From contig CANROO010000006.1 in assembly GCA_947632235.1 (NCBI GenBank), forward strand, positions 1 through 34,378: DNA of 34,378 nucleotides. The letters run 5' to 3'. The translations under genes were made by a program, and so were the position numbers. A model generated the notes under the pieces. It saw only the letters and a list, made by a program, of their open reading frames with translations. It was not told the origin of the DNA and did not search any database. This document shows, piece after piece, positions 5,262 through 34,127 of the stretch. This stretch comes from an uncultured Clostridia bacterium. GTDB lineage: Bacteria > Bacillota > Clostridia > Lachnospirales > CAG-274. Each line of letters begins with the position of its first letter. The first letter of the stretch is position 1.

Positions 5262-6545
5262 TTAAAACCCTTCCATGCCCTGTTTTTGGGCTTGTGTTAC
5301 TCTGTATTCATCCATAAGTCTGACGCACTCGTTTACGCTTATCTCTTTATTGAAAAGGCTGTTTAGGGCGCTCACCATATCCTCGGCGCTGTAGCCGGTC
5401 ACTCTGGAGGCCGCAGTGGAAACACGCTCGTTTTTGGATATGGAATCGGCTGCGTCCGTGACCATTCCGGACTGTATATTTGTAGTCTGAGCCTTAAAGC
5501 AGTTTACGGTCGAAATGCCGTCAAAGGCTATATTATAATTTTTACTGTCGGCGCAGAATGAAAGGAATTCAAGGACCTTGTCAAGGTGTCCGCTGTTTTT
5601 ATTCGCCATCATCATATTGAGGTTTCCGCCTTCATATGTGCCGTTCTCGGCGGTATTGAGGAAAACGGGCATAAGCGCAAAGTCATCCACGGAATATTTG
5701 CCGTCCTCGGCAAAGTCCGTATAGAACCATGTGTCCCATATGAATGTCATAACAGCCTCTCCCGAGCTCATTTTATCGCTTATATCAGACCAACCCGTCT
5801 GAAGAAAATCTTCGCCGAACCAGCCCTTTTCGGCGGCATCGTTAAGCCAGCGGACCATATTTGTGACCTCGGGGATATCGGCGTAGCCTATTTCATTTTT
5901 ATTTATTTTTTCGAGCGTTTCGGGAGAATCCGCAAAAACGGGGTCAAGTCCGAGCTGAGGCATCCACGAGCAGCCGTCGGCAGGCCAGCATATGGGCGTA
6001 TAGTCCGCATCGGCAAGCGCCTGACAGAGCATATCAAATTCCGCCTGATTTTCTGCAGGCTTAAGTCCAAGGCTGTCAAGTATTGTCTTGTTGTAATAAC
6101 ATCCCGAAACGGAGTTTTCCCAGAAAGGCAGACCCAAAAGCTTTCCGCCCGCATTTGTGCAGTAATCCCTCGCGCCGTCCGTGAGGTCGCTCACCCATTT
6201 TTCATTGTTGAGGTAATAAAAATTGTTTTCTGCATCAAAGCGGTTGAGGTCTTCATTGTTGAAATGCATGAATATATCGGGAGCATTGCCTGCATCGAAT
6301 TCGGCGGCTGCCGCTGTTTCAAACTCGGAATCCTCGAAGGATATTATATCGAGCTTATTGCCCGTTGCTGTTTCATATTGGCTGAAAATGCTCTGCATAT
6401 AGCTTTTGGCAATATCGCTTTCCTTGCCCATGAGGGTAAGGGTGACGGGAGTATCCTCATTTTCCTGCCTGTTCGCATTACATGCAGTAAGGATAAGCGA
6501 CAAAACAAGAACCGCTGTAAGAAACAGTTTTTTATTCTTCATCAA
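5262..6545 (-). CDS. extracellular solute-binding lipoprotein (sugar ABC type, family 1-like)
   Basis: Lipobox LILTACNAN; 'APDIFMHFNNEDLNRFDAENNFYYLN', 'LLGLPFWENSVSGCYYNKTILDSLGLKPAE'. Confidence 0.88.
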   Translation of the reverse strand: MMKNKKLFLTAVLVLSLILTACNANRQENEDTPVTLTLMGKESDIAKSYMQSIFSQYETATGNKLDIISFEDSEFETAAAAEFDAGNAPDIFMHFNNEDLNRFDAENNFYYLNNEKWVSDLTDGARDYCTNAGGKLLGLPFWENSVSGCYYNKTILDSLGLKPAENQAEFDMLCQALADADYTPICWPADGCSWMPQLGLDPVFADSPETLEKINKNEIGYADIPEVTNMVRWLNDAAEKGWFGEDFLQTGWSDISDKMSSGEAVMTFIWDTWFYTDFAEDGKYSVDDFALMPVFLNTAENGTYEGGNLNMMMANKNSGHLDKVLEFLSFCADSKNYNIAFDGISTVNCFKAQTTNIQSGMVTDAADSISKNERVSTAASRVTGYSAEDMVSALNSLFNKEISVNECVRLMDEYRVTQAQKQGMEGF

Positions 6546-6580
6546 ATATATCCTCCTAAGCTTCGTTTTGAGCCCCCTAT

Positions 6581-9499
6581 TTATTTTCCGCCCAGGAGCT
6601 TGCCCACAAGCTCTCTCACGGCGTTCATATCTATGGGCTTTGCAAGGTGACCGTCCATTCCGGCCTCCATGGCATTTTGAACATCCTCGGCAAATGTATT
6701 GGCCGTCATGGCGGCAATGGGTATTGTCTTAGCCTCGGGGTGAGCCGAAGAACGTATCTTTCTTGTAGCCTCGTAGCCGTTCATAACGGGCATCTGCACA
6801 TCCATGAGTATCATATCATAATATCCGGGTTCGGAGCGTTCAAGCATTTCAACGGCTTCAAGACCGTTCACCGCAAGCTCACAGTTGACGCCCTCTATGC
6901 TAAGTATTTCCATGAGTATTTCGGCATTTAGCTCGTTGTCCTCGGCAATAAGGAAGCGCTTGCCCTGCATAATGTTTTCTGCCGCAGAGGGCTCGGGCGC
7001 ACTCTGAGCTTCTTCCTCTTCAAACAAGGGCGCAATAGTCTGTATAAACGACGAAACAAAGAACGGCTTTGACATAAAGGCATTTATGCCCGCCCTTCTT
7101 GCTTCCTCCTCTATATCCTCCCAGTCGTGAGAGGTGAGCACAAGTATAGGCACATCCTTGCCTATTGCACCGCGTATTTTCCTTGCTGTCTGAACACCGT
7201 CCATGCCGGGCATCTTCCAGTCGAGCAGTATAACGCCGAAGTCATTGCCATCGTCATGGGCACGCACGGCCGAATCCACAGCGGACTGTCCGTCGGTAAC
7301 AAAGGAGACATCCACACCGGTATCGCGCATAAGCTCCTTGATATTAAGGCATATATCAAGCTCGTCATCCGCAACAAGCATACGGCTTACCTTGCGGGCA
7401 AACCATTCGGCGGAATGGGTCTGATCGGGAAGCACGAACGAAAGCTCAACGGTGAATGTACTGCCCTCGCCCTGCTTGCTTTCAACGGTTATTATACCGC
7501 CCATGAGGTCTACAAGGTTCTTTGTGATAGCCATGCCAAGACCCGTGCCCTGCACCTTATTTGTGACGGAGCTTATCTCCCTGCTGAAGGGATTGAATAC
7601 CTTCTTTCGGAATTCCTCACTCATGCCTATGCCGTTGTCCTGCACATCAAAGCGCAGAGTGACATACTGCGGAGCGGGACTCGGTATCTCTCTGACATTG
7701 AAATCTATCTTTCCGCCCTCGGGTGTATATTTTATAGCGTTTGCCATAAGATTTATAAGTATCTGATTGAGCCTGAGCTTATCGCCTACAAGCTGTTCGG
7801 GCGGAGCGCCCTGTACATTTATCCTGAACTGCTGTTTTTTAGCCTTTGCCTGGGGCATAATTATTATATTGAGCTCGTCCAAAAGCTCGGGCAGGCTGAA
7901 TATATCTACATTGAGCGATGTTTTTCCGCTCTCTATCTTGCTCATATCCAGCACATCGTTTATAAGGCTCAAAAGGTGATGGCTGGAAGCCGTTATTTTG
8001 CGAGTGTATTCCCTCACCTTGTCGGGATTGTCGGCTTCCTTTTCAAGGAGCATTGAAAATCCCACTATGGCATTCATTGGCGTTCTTATGTCGTGAGACA
8101 TATTTGAAAGGAAGTTGCTCTTTGCCTCGTTTGCGCTCTGCGCTGCATTAAGCGCCTCACGGAGCTTCTGATTCATCTGAAGATCCAATGTGCGGTCGGA
8201 CATTACAAGTATATATTTTCTGACATCCTGTATGCTCATGTGATACATTGTCATTCTGTACCACCTGCGCTCGCCCGTGCCCTGATGCATATATTCATAT
8301 TCCCACGACCTGCTGCCCTGAAGGGGTATATTTTCAAGCTCGTCCTTGGGTATGACAATATCGTCATCAGCTACGGCACATTTTTCAAGCACTCTTATAT
8401 CCTTGAGAGCATCCTCCACGGGAATGCCCAGAAGCCTCTCTATATTGGGGCTTATATAATCCACGCTCCATTTTTCGGCATCCAGCATTACAAAGAAATC
8501 GTCTACGCTGTTTGAAAGCACATCAAACATACGCTCGCGGTACTGGAGCTCGAGCTTGCTTTTGCGCGTAAGGCTATGACCTCTCATGAGAAGCAGAGCA
8601 ATGACAACGGAGCCCAAAAGAAGGAATATTGCTCCAAGAACATCCACGGTTATTTTCTGAACGGAAAGGAAGCCTGCGCTCACGGCATTCTGAGGCACAG
8701 AGCTCAGAAGTATATAATCTCTGTAGCTCACGGGCTGATACAGTATGCAGTGGTCTTCATCGCCTATCCTGCACCTTACTATGCCCGTGCTTCCCTTTGC
8801 CCATTCGTCTTGGAGAGCTGAAAGCTCTTCATCGGAAAGGTCAGAGGCGCCCTTGAGATAGACAAGATAGTTGCTGTATATATTGCCTCCGGTCTGTGTT
8901 GAAAGAATTATACTGCCGTCCGTGTGTATAATAAAACACTTTGCCTTGCCCGAAAATGCGTCCACATCAAGAGAGCTTGCCATGTCGGCATTTGTATAGC
9001 TTACGGCTATGGCGTCATATTCAAAGCCTTTATAAGCACCGTGCTCCGCAGGAACGGCAAACACAGTCACATCCTTGCCCTCGGGAGAGGCCTCGCTCAT
9101 AACGGGCTCCTTATTTTGTGTGAGCTCGCCCCATTCCTCGCCCATGTCAATGCTTCCCTCGGCACCGTCTACAGACATAAATCGGCCGTCGGAAGAAATG
9201 AAATAGAAGTCAGAAAAACCCCAGTATTCTTTTTCCTTTGCCACGAAACCGGGGAGCTTGCCTTCGTTTTCATCCGAGAGCGCAGAGCTGTTGTCCCAGC
9301 TTTCCAGAAGACCCCAGTTTCTTTCCACGAACATACCGAAGGAACGGTTCACCTGACTGTATATTTCCTCCAGATTGTCCGTGCTGTCCTTATAAATACG
9401 CTCGGATATGAATCTGAAATACACAACGCCTATGCTGACGGCTGAAATACACAATATACATATAAAAAATATTAAAAATGATTTTCCGAATTTTTTCAT
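6581..9499 (-). CDS. hybrid sensor histidine kinase with extracellular sensor, PAS, HisKA, HATPase_c and two REC domains
   Basis: 'NFLSNMSHDIRTPMNAIVGFSMLL', 'DNGIGMSEEFRKKVFNPFSRE', 'VILLDWKMPGMDGVQT', 'MILMDVQMPVMNGYEATRKIR'. Confidence 0.93.
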   Translation of the reverse strand: MKKFGKSFLIFFICILCISAVSIGVVYFRFISERIYKDSTDNLEEIYSQVNRSFGMFVERNWGLLESWDNSSALSDENEGKLPGFVAKEKEYWGFSDFYFISSDGRFMSVDGAEGSIDMGEEWGELTQNKEPVMSEASPEGKDVTVFAVPAEHGAYKGFEYDAIAVSYTNADMASSLDVDAFSGKAKCFIIHTDGSIILSTQTGGNIYSNYLVYLKGASDLSDEELSALQDEWAKGSTGIVRCRIGDEDHCILYQPVSYRDYILLSSVPQNAVSAGFLSVQKITVDVLGAIFLLLGSVVIALLLMRGHSLTRKSKLELQYRERMFDVLSNSVDDFFVMLDAEKWSVDYISPNIERLLGIPVEDALKDIRVLEKCAVADDDIVIPKDELENIPLQGSRSWEYEYMHQGTGERRWYRMTMYHMSIQDVRKYILVMSDRTLDLQMNQKLREALNAAQSANEAKSNFLSNMSHDIRTPMNAIVGFSMLLEKEADNPDKVREYTRKITASSHHLLSLINDVLDMSKIESGKTSLNVDIFSLPELLDELNIIIMPQAKAKKQQFRINVQGAPPEQLVGDKLRLNQILINLMANAIKYTPEGGKIDFNVREIPSPAPQYVTLRFDVQDNGIGMSEEFRKKVFNPFSREISSVTNKVQGTGLGMAITKNLVDLMGGIITVESKQGEGSTFTVELSFVLPDQTHSAEWFARKVSRMLVADDELDICLNIKELMRDTGVDVSFVTDGQSAVDSAVRAHDDGNDFGVILLDWKMPGMDGVQTARKIRGAIGKDVPILVLTSHDWEDIEEEARRAGINAFMSKPFFVSSFIQTIAPLFEEEEAQSAPEPSAAENIMQGKRFLIAEDNELNAEILMEILSIEGVNCELAVNGLEAVEMLERSEPGYYDMILMDVQMPVMNGYEATRKIRSSAHPEAKTIPIAAMTANTFAEDVQNAMEAGMDGHLAKPIDMNAVRELVGKLLGGK

Positions 9500-20308: not shown

Positions 20309-21481
20309 TTAGAAATAGCTTACCTTGATATGCTTGCCCATCTGTCTGAGGCATTCGGAAAGCTCCTGTACAAGATTCATTTTTATATTGAAGTTTATGG
20401 GAAGCTCGGGGTTCTGATGCGCGGGATTTATTGCCCTGCCCACGAAAAAATTAATATCCGTGGCTTCCTCAAAGAGAAGCTTTGAAATGAGAGAAGCTCC
20501 GTCACGGCTGAAGCCCCAGTTCTCATATTCCTTATTTTCGGACAGGAAATCCTTGGCATATTCAAGCACTCTGTTTACGGTTATAACGCCCTCTGTTACA
20601 AGGTCTACGCCGTCTATCACGGATATGGGCGGAACACCGTTGCTCTCGAAGCTGAGCGTTGCCTTGACCTCCTTGCCCAGGAATTTTGCGGCAATGGAGG
20701 CTGTTGTGCCTCCGCAGATTATATGCTTGCCTGCCTTTGAGAAGAAAAGCGACATCATCTTTCCGCAGTCGTTTCTGTCGGAGGGCGGGCCGAAGAGTAT
20801 ATTCATGGGGTTTCTTTTTCTTACCCTTATGACGCAGGCAGAAGCATCATCTCCGGGCTTTCCGCCGTAAAGCCTTTCGCACTCGTTTATAAGTATGGTG
20901 GCAAGCGTCTTGGCATTATAGCCCGCAGGCTCTATGGTCTCCATAAAGTCTATTATATCGTTGAGCTTCCAGCCGAAATTATAAGAAAGACCTATGCCCG
21001 CATGCGGACAGCCGTCACTCATGGCGACAAACAAGTCGCCCTCTTGGAGCTTTATTTTGGCCTTATATATCTTTTTATCGTCAATATTCAGCTCCTCACG
21101 GGGATAGCTGTAATTTTTGCCGTCACGCAGTATAAATACCTGCGGATTGTCATACTGTATTATCTCGGCATATTCGTTATCCACAAGATGTATTATTGTG
21201 AATGTGGAATAAGCCACGCCTCTCTGTGAGCAGACGGGAAGAGTTGCCGCAACCGTGGAAACGCAGTCCTCTATAGAAAGCCCCGCAGCCATGAGAGTAG
21301 ATATTATTTTTGATGTGAGCGTTGAGAGTATGCTCGCCTTTACACCGCTTCCGAGCCCGTCGGCAAGCACTATGACGGAAGAATTGTCGTCATTGTTCAC
21401 AACATCTATATGGTCTCCGCAGAGCTGTTCTTCATAGTGATTTATGCTTTTATAACCTATATCGGCGCAAAGATCATTCAT
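20309..21481 (-). CDS. SpoIIE-family PP2C-type phosphatase
   Basis: 'SSVIVLADGLGSGVKASILSTLTSKIISTLM', 'EGDLFVAMSDGCPHAG', 'GDDASACVIRVRK'. Confidence 0.9.
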   Translation of the reverse strand: MNDLCADIGYKSINHYEEQLCGDHIDVVNNDDNSSVIVLADGLGSGVKASILSTLTSKIISTLMAAGLSIEDCVSTVAATLPVCSQRGVAYSTFTIIHLVDNEYAEIIQYDNPQVFILRDGKNYSYPREELNIDDKKIYKAKIKLQEGDLFVAMSDGCPHAGIGLSYNFGWKLNDIIDFMETIEPAGYNAKTLATILINECERLYGGKPGDDASACVIRVRKRNPMNILFGPPSDRNDCGKMMSLFFSKAGKHIICGGTTASIAAKFLGKEVKATLSFESNGVPPISVIDGVDLVTEGVITVNRVLEYAKDFLSENKEYENWGFSRDGASLISKLLFEEATDINFFVGRAINPAHQNPELPINFNIKMNLVQELSECLRQMGKHIKVSYF

Positions 21482-23150
21482 TTGAGATCATCTCCTTAAG
21501 CTTAGTGAGAGCGATCTTGGTCTCCGCCGCCGTTTCGCCCAGAAGCGAGGCTATCTCCTGAACTATACGCATCTGCTTGTCGACCACCTTGTCGGTGACC
21601 TCTATAGTCTGAACGCTTATCTTTTCCTTCTGCTTGTTGCTCTTTTCCTCGTCCGTGACATCTCTCAATATGCAGAGCATGATGTGATATTCCTTGTCGG
21701 CTATTATAGTCTCCTCTACATATCTGTCGTACTCGGCAAGATATATCCTTTTGTTTTCAATGCGCTGTCCCGTATTCTGTACATTTATAAAGTCTATGGG
21801 ATCCATTATCCTTATAATAGGCTCGCCGAGGACATCCGAAACGGAGCTGACATTGAATATCTTCTTTGCGGACTTATTTATGAGCTGTACTTCAAACTGC
21901 TCATTGACTACAATAATGCCGTTCGGCGTGTTGTTGACTATGTTATCGGAGAAGCTCTCCGCCTTTTCCTTTAAGAAGGGCAGACACATGGATATTTCCG
22001 CCTTGCCCTGATATATGGCAACGGCCTTTTCACGGCAGGTGTCATAACCGCAGGAACCGCAGTTGAGTTCGTCCTCGGGCTTTGTCTTGCCCATATTCTT
22101 GAGTACGGCGCGTATCTCCTCCTCAGTGGGCATAGTGAGCTTTTTGTCAATGGGTTCAAAATTCTTGACTATGTCGGCATAGCCGGGCTGTTCAACTTCA
22201 AAGTCGTCCTCGCCCGCATAGCTTGACACAGCCTTATATTCCCTCACGGGAGAGAGGTTGAATTTCTCCATAACGGGGCCCGAAATACAGCTGCCGCTGC
22301 AGGCTGACATCTCAATGAAGCACTTATGTATACTGCCCTTTTCTATGTCTTTAAGAGCCGAAATGCAGTTCTGAGTGCCGTCTATTGCCATATATGTATA
22401 GCCCTCGACCTCCTCGCGCATGGTCTTTAAAATACCGCCCGTTGTGGGGAAAAGCCTTGCCCTGCTCTTTTCGGTGTCGTCCATATTTTTTTCAAGCTCA
22501 ATATCCTTGCTTTCAAGCCACCTTGTAAGTTCCTCGAATGTGAGCACGGCATCCACTATATCGCCGTAGTGGTCCGCCTCATCCTTCTTGGAAAGGCAGG
22601 GCCCTATAAATACCGTCTTGGCATCGGGCATACGCTTTTTTATGTCCGTGCAGTGCGCCTGCATGGGCGAAAATGTGTTTGCAAGATAAGGAAGCACAGA
22701 GGGGAAATGCTTCTGTATAAGCAGATTGACGGAATGACAGCAGGAGGAAATGAGTATATCCCTGTTGTCCTCTCTCAGCATCCTGAGATATTCATTCTTG
22801 ACAACGGTGGCGCCGAGAGCCGTCTCCTCCGCATCATAAAAGCCGAGCTTTTTGAGAGCGGAGCGCATGCCCTCTATGCCTACGCCCTCGTAATTGGCAA
22901 TGAATGAGGGCGCAATACTTGCGACTACCTTGTCACCGCTTTCTATCATCACCCTTACCTTCTCGGTCTCGTCCGTTATCTCCTTTGCATTCTGGGGACA
23001 CACAACGAAGCACTGACCGCAGAGTATGCACTCGTTGCCCACGATATGTGCCTGTCCTGCCGAAAAGCGTATTGACTTAACGGGACAGTGACGTATGCAC
23101 TTATAGCAATTTTTACAGTTTGATTTTTTAAGCTTGAGCCATTCTGCCAT
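21474..23150 (-). CDS. [Fe-Fe] hydrogenase-like protein with 4Fe-4S domains and PAS domain (putative sensory hydrogenase)
   Basis: CKNCYKCIRHCP and CILCGQCFVVCP; SSCCHSVN, IGPCLSKKDE and EMSACSGSCISGP correspond to H-cluster motifs L1/L2/L3; CGSCGYDTC; C-terminal PAS. Confidence 0.87.
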   Translation of the reverse strand: MAEWLKLKKSNCKNCYKCIRHCPVKSIRFSAGQAHIVGNECILCGQCFVVCPQNAKEITDETEKVRVMIESGDKVVASIAPSFIANYEGVGIEGMRSALKKLGFYDAEETALGATVVKNEYLRMLREDNRDILISSCCHSVNLLIQKHFPSVLPYLANTFSPMQAHCTDIKKRMPDAKTVFIGPCLSKKDEADHYGDIVDAVLTFEELTRWLESKDIELEKNMDDTEKSRARLFPTTGGILKTMREEVEGYTYMAIDGTQNCISALKDIEKGSIHKCFIEMSACSGSCISGPVMEKFNLSPVREYKAVSSYAGEDDFEVEQPGYADIVKNFEPIDKKLTMPTEEEIRAVLKNMGKTKPEDELNCGSCGYDTCREKAVAIYQGKAEISMCLPFLKEKAESFSDNIVNNTPNGIIVVNEQFEVQLINKSAKKIFNVSSVSDVLGEPIIRIMDPIDFINVQNTGQRIENKRIYLAEYDRYVEETIIADKEYHIMLCILRDVTDEEKSNKQKEKISVQTIEVTDKVVDKQMRIVQEIASLLGETAAETKIALTKLKEMISNE

Positions 23151-23161
23151 ATCCCTATCTC

Positions 23162-23413
23162 CTACCTTACAACGGAAAGTACATTTTCTTCAAAAAAGCT
23201 GTCAAAATTTTCGGGCTTTATCTTTGTGAAAACCTTGTCGTCAATATGTATGGTGACGCCCTCGCGGTTACAGCTGCCGGTGCAGAAGCTTCCCGAAAGC
23301 ACTACCTTGTCTTCAAGCTTATGATCCTTCACAGCCTTTTCAAATTTTTCGACTATCTCCTGCGAGCCCTTAAGATAACAGGAGCTTCCTACGCATATCT
23401 GTACGATCAACAT
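23162..23413 (-). CDS. thioredoxin-like [2Fe-2S] ferredoxin
   Basis: 'VQICVGSSCYLKGSQEIVEKFEKAV...LSGSFCTGSCNREGVTIHI'. MLIVQIC at 23413 preferred over the tracked start at 23482. Confidence 0.87.
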   Translation of the reverse strand: MLIVQICVGSSCYLKGSQEIVEKFEKAVKDHKLEDKVVLSGSFCTGSCNREGVTIHIDDKVFTKIKPENFDSFFEENVLSVVR

Positions 23414-23605
23414 AAATATTACCTCACAGTCCATAACAATAATTATGCCGAAAAATATACGCTTTTTTATATTTTTCGGCATTACATTCTCTTTGTAATT
23501 TAAACATATTTTATTGTTTTTGTCAAGTAAGCTGACGCAATTTACAACATATTTACAGTAATATGATAAAAGGAGCCTGTCAGAAATATTTTGTGACGAA
23601 CATGC

Positions 23606-24493
23606 TTATCCGATATATAAGCTCCGGGACAGCATTGCGAGCACATCACCTATGTCCTTATTTATGCACACGGCTCTGTCGGAAATATCGTGCGGGCAGT
23701 CGCAGCCGTCAATATTTATGCATACATACAGGGCATTTTTGTTTTCTGCCGTCATGCGCATGAAAGGAAACTTTATTATAACGGGAGTGTTATAGCCCAC
23801 TCCAAGCTCAAGGAATACTATATTTTTATTCTTATTCTCTTTTATAAAATCGAAATAGCGTCCGCAGGCTCTGTGCCAGCCCTCATCCTCCGCAAAACGG
23901 TCATCTGCTCGCAGATTCATAGCCATGGGCGCTCCGCATACGGGGCATTTCGGAATAAGATCGTGCGGTATCTTCATATTGCTCTGTTCCTTGAGCATAA
24001 GACTTATTGTTTCCTCGTTGTCATATGTTTTGTTACAGCAGGGTACGGAGCACTGAAAAAGTCCGTAATCGCCTTGTGTATAAAAAAGTCTGTCCTTGTC
24101 AAAGCCCGCCTTTTGAAAGCAATGGTCTACATTTGTGGTTATAACAAAATAGTTCTTATGCTTCACAAGTTCAAAAAGTTCTTCATAAACAGGTTTGGGA
24201 GCGTCCATATATCTGTTTATGTATATATATCTGCTCCAGTATGCCCAATATTCCTCCGCCGACGAAAAGGGATAAAATCCGCCGGAATACATATCCTCAA
24301 AGCCGTATTTTTCTATAAAATCTCTGAAATACGCATAGAAGCGCTCTCCGCCGTATGTAAAGCCCGCAGATGTTGAAAGTCCTGCGCCTGCGCCTATCAA
24401 AACGGCATCGGAAGAATCAATAGCCTTTTTTATTCTATCTATATTTTCCGATAAGCTCTGCATATATTCTGTAGTCGATGTCCTTGAAAACAT
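23606..24493 (-). CDS. SirTM-like (macrodomain-linked) sirtuin
   Basis: 'VLIGAGAGLSTSAGFTYGGERF', 'YFVITTNVDHCFQKAGFDKDRLFYTQGDYGLFQCSVPC', CPVCGAPM. Start may be the ATG at 24463. Confidence 0.85.
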   Translation of the reverse strand: MFSRTSTTEYMQSLSENIDRIKKAIDSSDAVLIGAGAGLSTSAGFTYGGERFYAYFRDFIEKYGFEDMYSGGFYPFSSAEEYWAYWSRYIYINRYMDAPKPVYEELFELVKHKNYFVITTNVDHCFQKAGFDKDRLFYTQGDYGLFQCSVPCCNKTYDNEETISLMLKEQSNMKIPHDLIPKCPVCGAPMAMNLRADDRFAEDEGWHRACGRYFDFIKENKNKNIVFLELGVGYNTPVIIKFPFMRMTAENKNALYVCINIDGCDCPHDISDRAVCINKDIGDVLAMLSRSLYIG

Positions 24494-25211
24494 TGAATAT
24501 CACCTCAATTTTACTGTTATTGCGCCTTTTGAAATCTAATACGGTGTTCACGGCAATATACGCGGCCTCGTCATTGGGGAAATGAAATTCACCCGTGGAT
24601 ATACAACAGAAGGCAAGACTATTTACATTGTTTTCTTCCGCAGCAATAAGACATGATCTATAGCAAGAAGCCAAAAGCTCTCTGTCGTGCTCGGTAATAC
24701 TACCCGTTATCATAGGTCCTACGGTGTGGATAACATATTTACACGGCAGGTTGAAGGCAGGCGTTATTTTTGCTCTGCCCACAGGCTCGTCAAAACCCTG
24801 TTTTTGCATAAGCTCTGCACAGTATATCCTGAGCTGTATGCCCGAAAAAGAATGTATGCAGTTGTCTATACAGCCGTGCAGAGGATAATAACAGCCCGTC
24901 ATACCGCTGTTTGCGGCATTCACTACAGCTCCGCACTTAAGCGATGTTATATCGCCCTGCCAAAGATATATACCCTCTCTCAGCGGCTTAAGAGTGCTGT
25001 AATCCGTAACAGCTCTGTGCCTTAATTCCTCCCGGAGATACTCGTCCTGTATTTTAAGAAAATCGGGACTTATGGGCTTTGGCATACGCACATTCATAAG
25101 CGAACGCAGAAGCCTTTTCTTATCCTCTGTTTTATTTGGCATATCGACGGAATATTTACCCTCGCCTATAAGATATTCAATTAAATAAACAAGTCTTTGC
25201 TCCTGTGTCAT
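24435..25211 (-). CDS. Zn-type macrodomain ADP-ribose hydrolase
   Basis: 'GDITSLKCGAVVNAANSGMTGCYYPLHGCIDNCIHSFSGIQLRIYCAELMQKQG', 'VIHTVGP'. Confidence 0.9.
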   Translation of the reverse strand: MTQEQRLVYLIEYLIGEGKYSVDMPNKTEDKKRLLRSLMNVRMPKPISPDFLKIQDEYLREELRHRAVTDYSTLKPLREGIYLWQGDITSLKCGAVVNAANSGMTGCYYPLHGCIDNCIHSFSGIQLRIYCAELMQKQGFDEPVGRAKITPAFNLPCKYVIHTVGPMITGSITEHDRELLASCYRSCLIAAEENNVNSLAFCCISTGEFHFPNDEAAYIAVNTVLDFKRRNNSKIEVIFNVFKDIDYRIYAELIGKYR

Positions 25212-25833: not shown

Positions 25834-26418
25834 TTACACCTCGTCTATAATGATACTCCTGTTTTCTCTCCTCGGCTTTACGGAGGGATATTCTCCGTCA
25901 CAGCAGCCGAGCGTTACAAAGCACCTTGCAATATAATCATCAGGAACGCCCCATTTTTTCATATATTCTCTGCCCTCGTCACAGTCAAAGGTCTCCTCCG
26001 CTCTTGACACTATGCACGAGGATATGCCGAGAGAATAAGCCTCCATAAGCATTGTTTCGGCACAGCAGAAGGCATCGGGAATGCCGAATATGAAATTTTT
26101 CTGCGCAAATATTATACAGACAGACGGCGCACCGTAAAAGCCGTTTTTTATTTCGGGCGAATCTATCACGCTGGGCTGTTCCTTTGAAACAAAGGAGCCT
26201 ATGAGATTTGACCTGTCAAAGCGAGCCATATTCATTATGCCCAGCTTTTTTGCAAGCCCGGCATTGTGTATGCCCACTATCATGCTCCTCTGACCTCCGC
26301 CCGCATTTGAAGCATATGTTCCCGCCTCTATTATTTTTTCGAGCTTTTCGCGCGGTATCTGCTCGTCTGTATATTTTCTTACAGAGCGCCTCATTTTTAT
26401 GTCTTCCAATAATTCCAT
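25834..26418 (-). CDS. nitroreductase-family protein
   Basis: 'MELLEDIKMRRSVRKYTDEQIPREKLEKIIEAGTYASNAGG'. ATG at 26418 overlaps the radical SAM stop. Confidence 0.88.
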   Translation of the reverse strand: MELLEDIKMRRSVRKYTDEQIPREKLEKIIEAGTYASNAGGGQRSMIVGIHNAGLAKKLGIMNMARFDRSNLIGSFVSKEQPSVIDSPEIKNGFYGAPSVCIIFAQKNFIFGIPDAFCCAETMLMEAYSLGISSCIVSRAEETFDCDEGREYMKKWGVPDDYIARCFVTLGCCDGEYPSVKPRRENRSIIIDEV

Positions 26419-27452
26419 TATTCTGTCTCCTTCCAGCACTGTGGGTCGGCGGAATAAAAATCGCCGTTCACTCCCGAGGCAACGGCAGGACAGCCCCTGC
26501 ACCATGCCTTGAGCTCACATTTTGAGCATTTTACAAATTTATCATATTGTCGGTATTTTTCCATTTCGCACACCCATACATCGGCAAGCCTGTCCTCAAA
26601 TACATTGGACACCCTGCTGTTCTGCACTCTTCTGCAGGCGTAGACATCGCCGTTCGGAAGTATGGTAAGGTGACAGTTTCCGCAGCTGCAGCCGCCGTAT
26701 ATAACGCCCTCTTCAGCATCCGAAGGTATTTTGAATTTGCCGTTTTCATAGTCGTACAGCGTCCAGAGGTGGTCCTTTTTGTTGAAATAGGTCTCACAGC
26801 CCATAGCCTCGTATTCGCTGAATTTTTTGTCGCATTTTTCAAGCAGTGCCCTGTATCTCAAGGGCTCTATGCCCTTTTCTCCGCTTCCGCTTGAAGGGCA
26901 GTATCTTGCAAAGGCAAATATATCCGCCTTATACTTTACAACGGTATCTATAATGTCCGGTACTTCGTCTATATTCACTTCGGACACGGTAGTCATTATA
27001 ACAGCTTTTATGTCCGCTTTTTTTATGCAGTCTATCTTTTCAAGCGTTATGTCAAATGAGCCCTTTTTTCTGAACCAGTCGTGAGTTTTTCGCATACCGT
27101 CAAGCGAAAGCTGATATTTTTCACATCCGCAGTCCTTAAGTCTTCGGCAAACCTCATAATTCAGATGAAAGGGATTGCCCAATACAGTAAAAGGTATATC
27201 CTTTGACTTCAGAAGCTCGGCAAGCCTCCAAAAATCGGGGTGAAGTATGGGGTCGCCTCCCGTTATGTAAAAATAGGGATATTTATTGTAAACAAGGCAG
27301 AAATCCTCACAGTTTGCTATGACCTCACGCATATTTTCAAGGCTCATCGTCTGCGTTTTTTTATGTTCATTTCCCGAAAAAATATAGCAGTGCTTACAGC
27401 GCTGATCACATTCGTCCGTAATGTGCCACTGAAAGGCAAAATAATCTCTCAT
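26418..27452 (-). CDS. radical SAM/SPASM maturase (ACGX-system type)
   Basis: CDQRCKHCYIF (CxxxCxxC); SPASM cysteines CGNCHLTILPNGDVYACRRV...CSKCELKAWCRGCP. ATG 27452 has a GAGG RBS; directly downstream of the ACG-repeat peptide. Confidence 0.92.
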   Translation of the reverse strand: MRDYFAFQWHITDECDQRCKHCYIFSGNEHKKTQTMSLENMREVIANCEDFCLVYNKYPYFYITGGDPILHPDFWRLAELLKSKDIPFTVLGNPFHLNYEVCRRLKDCGCEKYQLSLDGMRKTHDWFRKKGSFDITLEKIDCIKKADIKAVIMTTVSEVNIDEVPDIIDTVVKYKADIFAFARYCPSSGSGEKGIEPLRYRALLEKCDKKFSEYEAMGCETYFNKKDHLWTLYDYENGKFKIPSDAEEGVIYGGCSCGNCHLTILPNGDVYACRRVQNSRVSNVFEDRLADVWVCEMEKYRQYDKFVKCSKCELKAWCRGCPAVASGVNGDFYSADPQCWKETE

Positions 27453-27520
27453 AGTAATTACCTCGCAAAAAACAATATGACAATTTATGCTCCCGGCAAT
27501 AAAGCGGGAGCACAAAAACA

Positions 27521-27682
27521 TTATTTGCCTCCTGCTCCGCAGGCTGTAGGCTTGTCGCCCGAACCGCAGGCAGAACCGCAGGCTGTGGGCTTATCGCCCG
27601 AACCGCAGGCTGTACCGCATGCCGATGAAGGCTTGTCATCCTTGCCTGCCGTGCGCCATCCGTAAATATCCGTAAGTGCCAT
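27521..27682 (-). CDS. ACGX-repeat peptide, putative RiPP precursor
   Basis: MALTDIYGWRTAGKDDKPSSACGTACGSGDKPTACGSACGSGDKPTACGAGGK (53 aa), strong GGAGG RBS; two 13-aa repeats ACG[TS]ACGSGDKPT plus a terminal ACGAGGK. Confidence 0.9.
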   Translation of the reverse strand: MALTDIYGWRTAGKDDKPSSACGTACGSGDKPTACGSACGSGDKPTACGAGGK

Positions 27683-27801: not shown

Positions 27802-27830
27802 TTGACACAGAGGATATAATGCATTATAAT
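27802..27830 (+). promoter_or_regulatory. sigma-A-type promoter for hxlR-type gene
   Basis: TTGACA (27802-27807), 17-bp spacer, TATAAT (27825-27830). Confidence 0.8.
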
Positions 27831-31730: not shown

Positions 31731-34073
31731 TTATCTTTCAACGGGCATTTTATAACTGCTGTCAAGTATCTTCTGCAGTACCTGTGCAACATCTGCCGAA
31801 TCCAGCTTGCCGTTCATATCCACATCTATATATTTCATATAATCCGGCGTCTTGTCTTCAATAGGCATTTCCGTTCCTGTAAGGACCTTGCTCAGAATAT
31901 CGGCAGCATCGTTTATCTCAAGCTGTCTGTCGCCGTCGGCACTGCCGTAGACAGGCTCTGAAGGCTCGGGAGCGCTTGAAGGCTCGGCTGTGGTGGCTTC
32001 GGTGGAAGCCTCGGTCGATGTTTGCGATGCTGTGGTAGTCTGAGTTGAAGGCTCCGCAGTGGTAGTCTGAGTTGAAGGCTCTGCAGTGGTAGTTTCAGTC
32101 GAAGTTTCCGTTGTGCTCAGGGTCGTAACCGTAGTAGTTTCGGGAGCTATGCCGTTGTACTCCGCAACCTCAATATAGTATATATCCACATTTGTTGAAG
32201 GCTTGAATGTATATGTGCCTGCGTCCAGAAGGTCAATTGTAGTTATAACATCGTTGCCCTTATTGCCCGTCTGGAATATGCCGTGATATACATTGTCGGG
32301 AGCCTCTGGACACTTTACCTCTACCCTCTGGGGAGTATTTCCCGCAGTGGACGCTATGACCGTAAACTTGGCTGCGGAGGATGTTGTGAAGCTTATCTCT
32401 GAGCCTGTTGCAAAGCTTCCCTCGTAGCTGTAAGGCTCTGTGCCTCTGTAGCCCGAAGCCTTGTTTGCCTTGCAGGATGCAGCGGCGCCCTTGAAGAATG
32501 TGCCTGTGCCGTCAAGTCCGCCGAATTCCTTGCCCGTAGAGCCGGAGGTTTCGGGGTCATAGTAGTAAACAGCCGTAACATCGCCTATTACCTCGGGAGG
32601 AGTGATAGTATCTTCAACAACAATGGTCTTCGTAGGAGCACCGCTTTCCGAGACCGCTATATCCTTAGCCTCCTCGGGTGAATGGAGCACATAAGCCTTG
32701 CTTCCTATATATCCGTTTGCATCAAAGTTGTTGTATGTCCAGCCTCCCTTTTTGGCAGTGAAGTCGCTTGCCGTCATTCTGTATTCCCTTGAAGGCGCGT
32801 TGAAGTAGTCCACGCCCTCGGCGCTTTCTCTTGTGTTGACCATTACATTGTTGTACGCCTTTATAACACCGCCGTCATTATCGGAAAACTTTGAGGCATA
32901 TCCGCCCTGAGATGAGGTGAGGAAGGGTGAAGAAGCATCCTCAAAATAGTTATTCTCGGCAAATATACTGCAGTTGCAGGTAGCACCTACGCCATAGGCC
33001 GTGGTGCCGTAATAATAGTTATTGTATACATGTATGTTATGCCATCTTACTCTGGGCGTTCTCTGACCCGTGCCGTCAAAGAAATTGTGATGGAAGGTTA
33101 TGTTGCCCGTGCTCTCCCTGCTACTTGCACTTGAACCAATAAGAGAGGTCTTGTCCGTTCCCTTGAAGTGGTTGTAGGAAACGGTCACATTGTTACATTC
33201 TCTCAGATCGCAGGAGCCGTCGCCGTGGAGCTTATCTCTTTCCGAGGTGCTGTCCTTGGGATACCAGCCCGAATAGAAGGTATTGTTATGTACCCAGAGA
33301 TCCTCGGCATTTTCAAAGCCTATAGCGTCCTCTGTGTAGTCGGTGAATACCATATTTCTGAACTCGGTGTCCTTATTATCGCCGGAGCCTATTCCCCAGC
33401 CCGAGAAGCCGGAGCCCGGACCTACGCCTTCTATTGTGACACCGCAGGTGTTTTTCCACATACCGGGGCTTGTGGAAGAGCCTACGGGCGTTATCTTGCC
33501 TATAACTCTTATTATAATGGGCTTGCCTTTATTAAGGCTGTTAAGACCGCCCAGAAGAGAAGTAAGACTCTTATTGTTATATACCTTGCTCTTGTTCTTT
33601 TCTGTAGCGTATATTATAAGAGTACCATCGGCAACTGTTCCGTCGGCATTATATGCGCCGGGAGCGCTGTTATTGGCAAAAGCGAAGCCCGAACGGTCAT
33701 ACGCTTCGGGTGTTGCCGTGTATGTGACAACGGCATTTCCCTCCGCGCCGTCTGTTACGGGAACTACCTTTACATCATAGCTTGTACCGCCCTTTAAGCC
33801 CAATACGTCAACTCTGTACGCATTGCCTCCTTCATTTCTGACAAGCTCGCTGTCGACCCTTACATAGGCGCTGTCGGGCTGTGAGCTTTCCTTGCTGTAT
33901 ACATTGTAATCAGCGCCGTTTGCGCCTTCCCATTCAATGAAGATGCTTTCATTGCCTGCGCCCTCGAGAATTACGCTTTCTGCAGCGGCTGCGGTAAAGC
34001 ACGAAAGGCTTACTGCCGAAAGTGTCATAACTGCCGAAAGACCAAGCGCAGTGATAGATTTTTTGACATTCAT
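31731..34073 (-). CDS. secreted pectate lyase-like (PL1-type) protein with FN3-like domain, Thr-rich linker and C-terminal dockerin
   Basis: Signal peptide; 'KPIIIRVIGKITP', 'GVTIEGVGPGSGFSGWGIG', 'ITFHHNFFDGTGQRTPRVRWHNIHVYNNYYYG'; ETSTETTTAEPSTQTTTAEPSTQ linker; 'DGDRQLEINDAADILSKVL...DVDMNGKLDSADVAQVLQKIL'. Confidence 0.88.
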   Translation of the reverse strand: MNVKKSITALGLSAVMTLSAVSLSCFTAAAAESVILEGAGNESIFIEWEGANGADYNVYSKESSQPDSAYVRVDSELVRNEGGNAYRVDVLGLKGGTSYDVKVVPVTDGAEGNAVVTYTATPEAYDRSGFAFANNSAPGAYNADGTVADGTLIIYATEKNKSKVYNNKSLTSLLGGLNSLNKGKPIIIRVIGKITPVGSSTSPGMWKNTCGVTIEGVGPGSGFSGWGIGSGDNKDTEFRNMVFTDYTEDAIGFENAEDLWVHNNTFYSGWYPKDSTSERDKLHGDGSCDLRECNNVTVSYNHFKGTDKTSLIGSSASSRESTGNITFHHNFFDGTGQRTPRVRWHNIHVYNNYYYGTTAYGVGATCNCSIFAENNYFEDASSPFLTSSQGGYASKFSDNDGGVIKAYNNVMVNTRESAEGVDYFNAPSREYRMTASDFTAKKGGWTYNNFDANGYIGSKAYVLHSPEEAKDIAVSESGAPTKTIVVEDTITPPEVIGDVTAVYYYDPETSGSTGKEFGGLDGTGTFFKGAAASCKANKASGYRGTEPYSYEGSFATGSEISFTTSSAAKFTVIASTAGNTPQRVEVKCPEAPDNVYHGIFQTGNKGNDVITTIDLLDAGTYTFKPSTNVDIYYIEVAEYNGIAPETTTVTTLSTTETSTETTTAEPSTQTTTAEPSTQTTTASQTSTEASTEATTAEPSSAPEPSEPVYGSADGDRQLEINDAADILSKVLTGTEMPIEDKTPDYMKYIDVDMNGKLDSADVAQVLQKILDSSYKMPVER

Positions 34074-34127
34074 TTTTGTACACCTCATTTTTTTATTTTT
34101 TTATTATAAGCTTAAAAGCTATAGTTT

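Follow-up and report, generated by a model that had tools for sequence, protein, structure and literature searches.

What does a short peptide built of Ala-Cys-Gly repeats do in gut Clostridia, and what does the radical SAM enzyme encoded next to it make of its cysteines? The question arises from a locus in a 34,378-nucleotide stretch of DNA (the window) from contig CANROO010000006.1 of an uncultured Clostridia bacterium. An earlier, sequence-only reading had taken the two genes for a RiPP precursor and its maturase, assigned them to an NCBIfam "ACGX system", and given thioether crosslinks as the natural prediction. Our preferred explanation, to which we give about an even chance of being right, is that this is an ACGX-type RiPP locus that works intracellularly within a thiol/redox-stress operon and not as an antibiotic.

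Organization of the locus

The maturase gene is followed in the window by genes for a nitroreductase, a PNPOx-ferredoxin, a Zn-macrodomain and a SirTM, in that order, and an HxlR-type gene is divergent. The features are as follows.

27521 to 27682, minus strand: ACGX precursor peptide, 53 aa, tandem repeat, core under purifying selection; TIGR04341, 33.5 bits (cut-off 28)
27484 to 27516, minus strand: strong hairpin within the 68-nt peptide-maturase spacer; -20.5 kcal/mol, z -3.66
26418 to 27452, minus strand: radical SAM/SPASM maturase, 344 aa, with conserved Cys; TIGR04340, 594.3 bits (cut-off 400)
25834 to 26418, minus strand: nitroreductase-family flavoprotein, whose start codon shares 1 nt with the maturase stop; PF00881, 66 bits
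25216 to 25830, minus strand: PNPOx-like flavin domain with two 4Fe-4S motifs; PF01243 and PF00037, both over cut-off
24435 to 25211, minus strand: zinc macrodomain, protein-ADP-ribose hydrolase, with a Cx4HxC Zn-loop; NF003163, 344 bits (cut-off 272); PDB 8rsi
23606 to 24493, minus strand: SirTM (class M sirtuin, protein ADP-ribosyltransferase); S. pyogenes SirTM, 5a3a, 234 bits
27867 to 28205, plus strand: divergent HxlR/DUF24-type regulator with an N-terminal Cys (PDCPV); PF01638, 114 bits
27758 to 27769, minus strand: operator-like site AAGTGCCTTCTT, two mismatches to AAGTGCGTACTT; motif scan
27802 to 27830, plus strand: perfect sigma-70 consensus (TTGACA-17-TATAAT) for the HxlR gene; 12/12 match by consensus scan only

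The SirTM and macrodomain genes overlap by 59 nt, and Rfam gave no match anywhere in the window. Just downstream of SirTM (21474-23482) are genes for an FeFe-hydrogenase-like protein with a PAS domain and a NuoE-like 2Fe-2S protein. Both were considered as operon members and rejected; among the best 80 of at least 562 related loci, the hydrogenase occurs in one and NuoE in none. On the other side, the window encodes a large secreted protein (31731-34088) that by eye is pectate lyase-like with a Thr-rich repeat linker and a dockerin-like C-terminal end; the linker contains a 27-bp tandem repeat at 32032-32104.

A conserved repeat peptide travels with its maturase

The peptide (MALTDIYGWRTAGKDDKPSSACGTACGSGDKPTACGSACGSGDKPTACGAGGK; ATG 27682, stop 27521, minus strand) has a leader that begins MALTDIYGW and a core with five ACG motifs. 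It is preceded by the Shine-Dalgarno sequence AAGGAGG about 8 nt ahead of the ATG and is separated by 68 nt from the maturase ATG at 27452, all as the sequence-only reading had described. Tandem Repeats Finder independently recovers the 39-bp repeat (27537-27619, 2.1 copies, 90% match), so that the 13-aa periodicity noticed earlier holds in the window; it is not general, however, since units in relatives range from 7 to about 17 aa, with 1 to 15 ACG motifs per peptide. The family named in that reading does exist, and the profile search that had been suggested placed both proteins over its cut-offs. For the peptide, the "ACGX-repeat peptide" match covers residues 1-50 with E = 4.8e-8, which indicates that the repeat peptide is more than a chance arrangement. 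The pair in the window is thus a member of a family already named in NCBIfam.

Relatives were collected in one scan of genome contigs, from which the best 80 of at least 562 confirmed relatives, the most similar ones, were taken. Nearly all are from Clostridia and many are MAGs, some of them probably mislabelled; two loci (L049 and L075) lie on contigs labelled Candidatus Brocadia and Bacteroides that are probably mis-binned or mislabelled MAG contigs. Cultured carriers include Coprococcus comes, Frisingicoccus caecimuris and Oscillibacter valericigenes. Repeat numbers may be affected by short-read assembly. Loss of the peptide from relatives that keep the maturase had been named as the outcome that would speak against a RiPP. 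We looked for such loci: of the 76 among these 80 with enough upstream sequence, 74 have peptide and maturase together; one exception (L041) has the leader alone, and the other (L060) lacks both peptide and neighbours. Among 23 ACGX genomes examined separately, every one shows a peptide match next to the maturase, in 21 of them over the TIGR04341 cut-off. A RiPP is the natural reading of the pair.

The 66 complete peptides share the leader pattern M-A/G-L-x-N/D-L/I-x-G-W, in which L3 and W9 are invariant. Their cores consist almost exclusively of A, G, C, S, K, P, E, D and T and have a conserved C-terminal unit, ACGAGDK or ACGASDK. One genome has two rSAM_ACGX copies on different contigs (G322:C26, locus L185, and G322:C6), and the peptide leader at L185 is non-canonical (MSEMLNNV...). 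Compared with a same-genus relative (L006), the core in the window shows 10 synonymous and no non-synonymous differences (pS 0.37, pN 0.00), and the leader 5.5 non-synonymous changes. Doublet repeat units within peptides likewise differ mostly by synonymous changes (pN/pS 0.09, 204 pairs), and ACG is spelled by 28 different codon triplets. These patterns point to purifying selection on the core, with amino acids kept while codons drift; because the differences are mostly synonymous and the ACG codons varied, the repeat does not look like a DNA artefact.

The maturase carries the radical SAM motif CX3CX2C at C15/C19/C22 and SPASM cysteines at C257/C273/C309/C312/C318/C321/C339, which bears out the cysteine motifs of the sequence-only reading. 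Across 81 aligned homologues, all three radical SAM cysteines and six of the seven SPASM ones are invariant; C339 is kept in 80 and falls in a gap in the remaining one. The radical SAM motif begins as early as residue 15, which leaves no N-terminal extension of RRE-domain size. In an AlphaFold model of the enzyme (mean pLDDT 62.6, and under 50 from residue 270 onward), the radical SAM barrel was usable and the SPASM half was not resolved.

The spacer hairpin does not qualify as a canonical terminator. Spacer hairpins with unrelated stem sequences were found in 10 other loci tested, whereas a spacer of just 27 nt has none. It probably sets the ratio of peptide to enzyme, limiting read-through or protecting the upstream message, which would leave the peptide in excess.

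Maturases of genus g133 (G170, G237 and G405; 35% identical) were considered as ACGX relatives and rejected; they have no peptide and adjoin AgrB-like genes. Three loci (L186, L187 and L188; about 6000-8700) encode radical SAM/SPASM enzymes ~35% identical to the ACGX maturase (TIGR04340, 285-307 bits), with no ACGX peptide and, as judged by eye, an AgrB-like protein directly after the enzyme. It is possible that these form a radical-SAM-linked agr-type signalling system.

The ACGX pair belongs to a redox and ADP-ribosylation operon

Neighbouring genes were counted in 63 of the best 80 of at least 562 loci, those with at least 4.3 kb downstream, and in 71 loci for the upstream side. Downstream of the ACGX pair, a nitroreductase and a PNPOx-ferredoxin each occur in 45/63 loci, SirTM in 42/63 and the Zn-macrodomain ADP-ribose hydrolase in 29/63; all four are found together in 20 and none in 4. 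A divergent HxlR-type gene lies upstream in 55/71. No transporter or exporter, protease or peptidase, or immunity gene is conserved across the best 80 of at least 562 neighbourhoods, and neither is an RRE protein. The conserved HxlR/nitroreductase/PNPOx-ferredoxin/Zn-macrodomain/SirTM operon changes the likely function of the ACGX pair.

An independent sample of 392 genomes drawn evenly from the class gave the same association. SirTM was found in 66 genomes and rSAM_ACGX over cut-off in 16, and all 16 have SirTM (hypergeometric p = 8e-14 by genome, with kinship handled only by the genus count). By genus, SirTM is present in 11/11 ACGX genera and in 45/223 overall (p = 8e-9). In 13 of the 16 genomes the SirTM and maturase genes share a contig, no more than 4 kb apart. 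Since it is not nearby in 21/63 loci and 3/16 genomes, SirTM is not obligatory for ACGX function. Conversely, 50 of the 66 SirTM genomes lack ACGX. Because all 16 ACGX genomes fall among the 66, SirTM is the more widespread of the two systems, with ACGX as a frequent accessory. Where SirTM operons lack ACGX, they often retain the HxlR gene and the operator-like motif, and some have a more distant PNPOx-ferredoxin. At one locus (G254; L164:9380-9860), the second unit of the peptide is joined to the start region of the nitroreductase gene and the maturase is gone; PNPOx-ferredoxin, macrodomain, SirTM, HxlR and operator-like site are retained. The junction may be an assembly error, and because one deletion truncates the peptide and removes the maturase together, it does not separate the two.

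Both ADP-ribosylation enzymes look catalytically intact from their sequences. Residues 8-286 of the SirTM in the window align with the S. pyogenes enzyme, and the equivalents of N118, Q137 and R192, which are required for ADP-ribosylation (PMC4518038), are conserved. The best PDB match of the macrodomain, 8rsi, is full-length (269 bits, residues 4-259, including the N-terminal extension), and its CYYPLHGC loop is of the Cx4HxC type that defines Zn-macrodomain hydrolases (PMC11490716). No GcvH was found in the genome of the window, and GcvH is absent from 21/23 ACGX genomes. We considered this an argument that SirTM targets the peptide and dropped it: GcvH is lacking equally often from SirTM genomes that have no ACGX (46/50), so that the lack of GcvH does not single out the peptide. 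An LplA-like gene does not recur in the best 80 of at least 562 neighbourhoods.

The regulator resembles thiol-based redox sensors

A AAGTGCGTACTT-type site with at most two mismatches is present in all 56 HxlR-peptide intergenic regions checked, compared with about 0.7/56 in shuffled regions. With one mismatch allowed, 45 of the 59 matches in 1.07 Mb fall in the 15 kb that these HxlR-peptide intergenic regions make up, and the motif is ~225-fold denser in these intergenic regions than elsewhere. Similar sites also occur upstream of several SirTM operons without ACGX. The regulator in the window scores 114 bits with the RrpB and 89 bits with the RrpA redox transcription factor models, both below cut-off. 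The N-terminal Cys of the linked regulators lies in CP[VA] in 52/55 and in ECAV in 2 more. In B. subtilis, the DUF24 regulators HypR, YodB and CatR sense disulfide and quinone stress through an N-terminal Cys and control nitroreductase-type genes (PMC6943732). By analogy, the HxlR protein in the window may act like these redox sensors, and the operon would then be induced by stress.

Chemistry at the ACG cysteines

The sequence-only reading's choice of thioether crosslinks is not the best-backed prediction. The best-scoring family for the maturase apart from its own is SbtM, which converts Cys/Sec into thio(seleno)oxazole. The match to SbtM (TIGR04082; 172.3 bits, far below its cut-off of 350), the nearest model only, spans maturase residues 5-339 against model positions 199-515 and exceeds all heme, PapB and sactipeptide models, with PapB (NF047865) at 66.8 bits, below its cut-off of 340; two further ACGX maturases gave the same order of family scores. 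Among 449 core cysteines in the peptide family, Gly follows in 449 and Ala precedes in 431. Thioethers are not favoured because, among characterised families, SbtM scores highest and because Gly comes after every core Cys. Searching the whole phylum for SbtM genes gave no match, a result that does not show their absence.

Judging from these profile scores and residue patterns, we place a thiooxazole first, at somewhat short of an even chance, and regard a thioether as possible but rather unlikely; some other chemistry is likewise a doubtful prospect. The first two readings differ sharply in what they predict: a thiooxazole would cost 4 Da per Cys and leave the thiols alkylatable, whereas a thioether would cost 2 Da and block them.

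The alternative that survives best is a ranthipeptide-like one, in which a bond joins the unit-final Cys to the Asp at +4 (CX3D), like the links that PapB makes in freyrasin, while the first Cys of a doublet is free or otherwise linked; the function could be the same or different. PapB acts on CX3D/E motifs (PMC9413430), and of 248 unit-final cysteines, 217 are followed at +4 by Asp and 6 by Glu, with the peptides of L083 and L111 built almost entirely of ACGxxDKP units. Across all 449 core cysteines, +4 is Cys in 201, Asp in 217 and D or E in 223. Against the link, the first Cys of doublets has Cys, not Asp, at +4 in all 201 cases, and the remaining unit-final cysteines mostly have G or A (L040 mostly A). 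Together with the lower score of the PapB model, this makes the CX3D link a tentative, minority reading.

Proposed function and its alternatives

How might the locus work? In the explanation that we prefer, the HxlR-type regulator would use its N-terminal Cys to sense an oxidant or electrophile and would control the divergent operon from the AAGTGCGTACTT-type site. The spacer hairpin would let the Ala-Cys-Gly repeat peptide be produced in excess over the maturase. The maturase would recognise the short MALxNLxGW leader and act on the ACG cysteines; the likeliest outcome is a heterocycle formed from the Cys, with a reactive thiol retained, such as the 5-thiooxazole made by SbtM. Present in large amounts, the mature peptide may then buffer thiol redox state or metals, with the nitroreductase and the PNPOx-ferredoxin serving it, while SirTM would write and the Zn-macrodomain erase ADP-ribose within the same response. 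An intracellular stress role is suggested because the operon partners are redox and ADP-ribosylation enzymes and no exporter, peptidase or immunity gene is conserved; the peptide is presumably not exported.

A secreted antimicrobial or signalling RiPP, such as a sactipeptide- or ranthipeptide-type bacteriocin, would fit the usual layout of such clusters, with a precursor beside a radical SAM/SPASM enzyme. It is nevertheless quite improbable given the partner genes, the lack of a conserved transporter, protease or immunity gene in the best 80 of at least 562 neighbourhoods, and a core under purifying rather than diversifying selection. A precursor of a small redox cofactor of the mycofactocin or PQQ kind could serve the flavin and ferredoxin partners downstream, and the mycofactocin rSAM model gives the maturase 83 bits; however, no RRE protein or peptidase is conserved, up to 15 equivalent repeats with a conserved C-terminal unit suggest that the whole chain is the product, and flavin partners also accompany SirTM without ACGX, so that this idea has a slim chance. 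That the peptide is an unmodified metallothionein-like chain or thiol buffer, with the maturase acting elsewhere, would suit a Cys-rich low-complexity sequence in a likely stress operon, but is very improbable with the peptide beside the maturase at 74/76 loci, no CXC or CC metallothionein pattern in the peptides, and a G254 deletion that leaves the two unseparated.

Within the intracellular redox-stress explanation, the peptide is the leading candidate for the SirTM substrate, in view of the Asp four residues past most unit-final cysteines and by analogy with lipoyl-GcvH-L in the S. aureus/S. pyogenes operon. A bolder version is that the matured peptide is a ribosomally encoded multi-thiol redox carrier that replaces lipoyl-GcvH-L, with SirTM ADP-ribosylating the Asp beside the modified Cys only after maturation and the Zn-macrodomain reversing this; it is improbable as a whole. 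We know of no RiPP under reversible ADP-ribosylation and no SirTM substrate beyond GcvH-L. If true, the ADP-ribosylated ACGX peptide would be the first of either kind. Our literature searches found nothing relevant on ACGX or its TIGR accessions, and no function or product for the family; nothing relevant that joins macrodomains or sirtuins to radical SAM enzymes or RiPPs; and nothing relevant on gut radical SAM Cys-rich peptides and oxidative stress. The tie to SirTM, the Zn-macrodomain and a likely thiol-sensing regulator offers a concrete proposal for the function of this gut Clostridia peptide family.

Comparison with known systems

The locus matches the NCBIfam ACGX system (TIGR04341 target_ACGX, TIGR04340 rSAM_ACGX) in cut-offs, adjacency and repeat type, although the peptide scores not far over its cut-off (33.5 and 28) and has short 13-aa units. 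SbtM acts at Cys/Sec and aligns with the ACGX maturase over the full catalytic part, but has about 200 extra N-terminal residues. Freyrasin, the PapA/PapB ranthipeptide, shares the CX3D spacing of most ACGX unit-final positions; in contrast, the ACGX maturase is not PapB-like and almost half of the ACGX cysteines are without an acidic partner.

The thiooxazole metallophores are made by another enzyme class from EGKCG repeats, lose 4 Da per Cys, are still alkylatable and bind copper (PMC12668002). These captophorins and bufferins resemble the ACGX peptides in Cys-Gly repeats, low-complexity chain and a link to oxidative or metal stress (PMC12668002, PMC12452194), and differ in having an MNIO enzyme with an RRE-type partner and a Sec signal peptide and in occurring in other phyla.

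The SirTM/Zn-macro/GcvH-L/LplA operon of S. aureus and S. pyogenes shares with the locus the SirTM and Zn-macrodomain pair with overlapping or adjacent genes, flavin oxidoreductases and a link to redox stress (PMC4518038, PMC11490716). It has GcvH-L and LplA where the locus has the ACGX peptide and a radical SAM enzyme, and OYE/LLM where the locus has the nitroreductase and PNPOx-ferredoxin. The targets of SirTM/Zn-macro pairs outside the extended GcvH-L operon were stated as unknown in 2024 (PMC11490716), and the ACGX peptide is a candidate for what such pairs modify.
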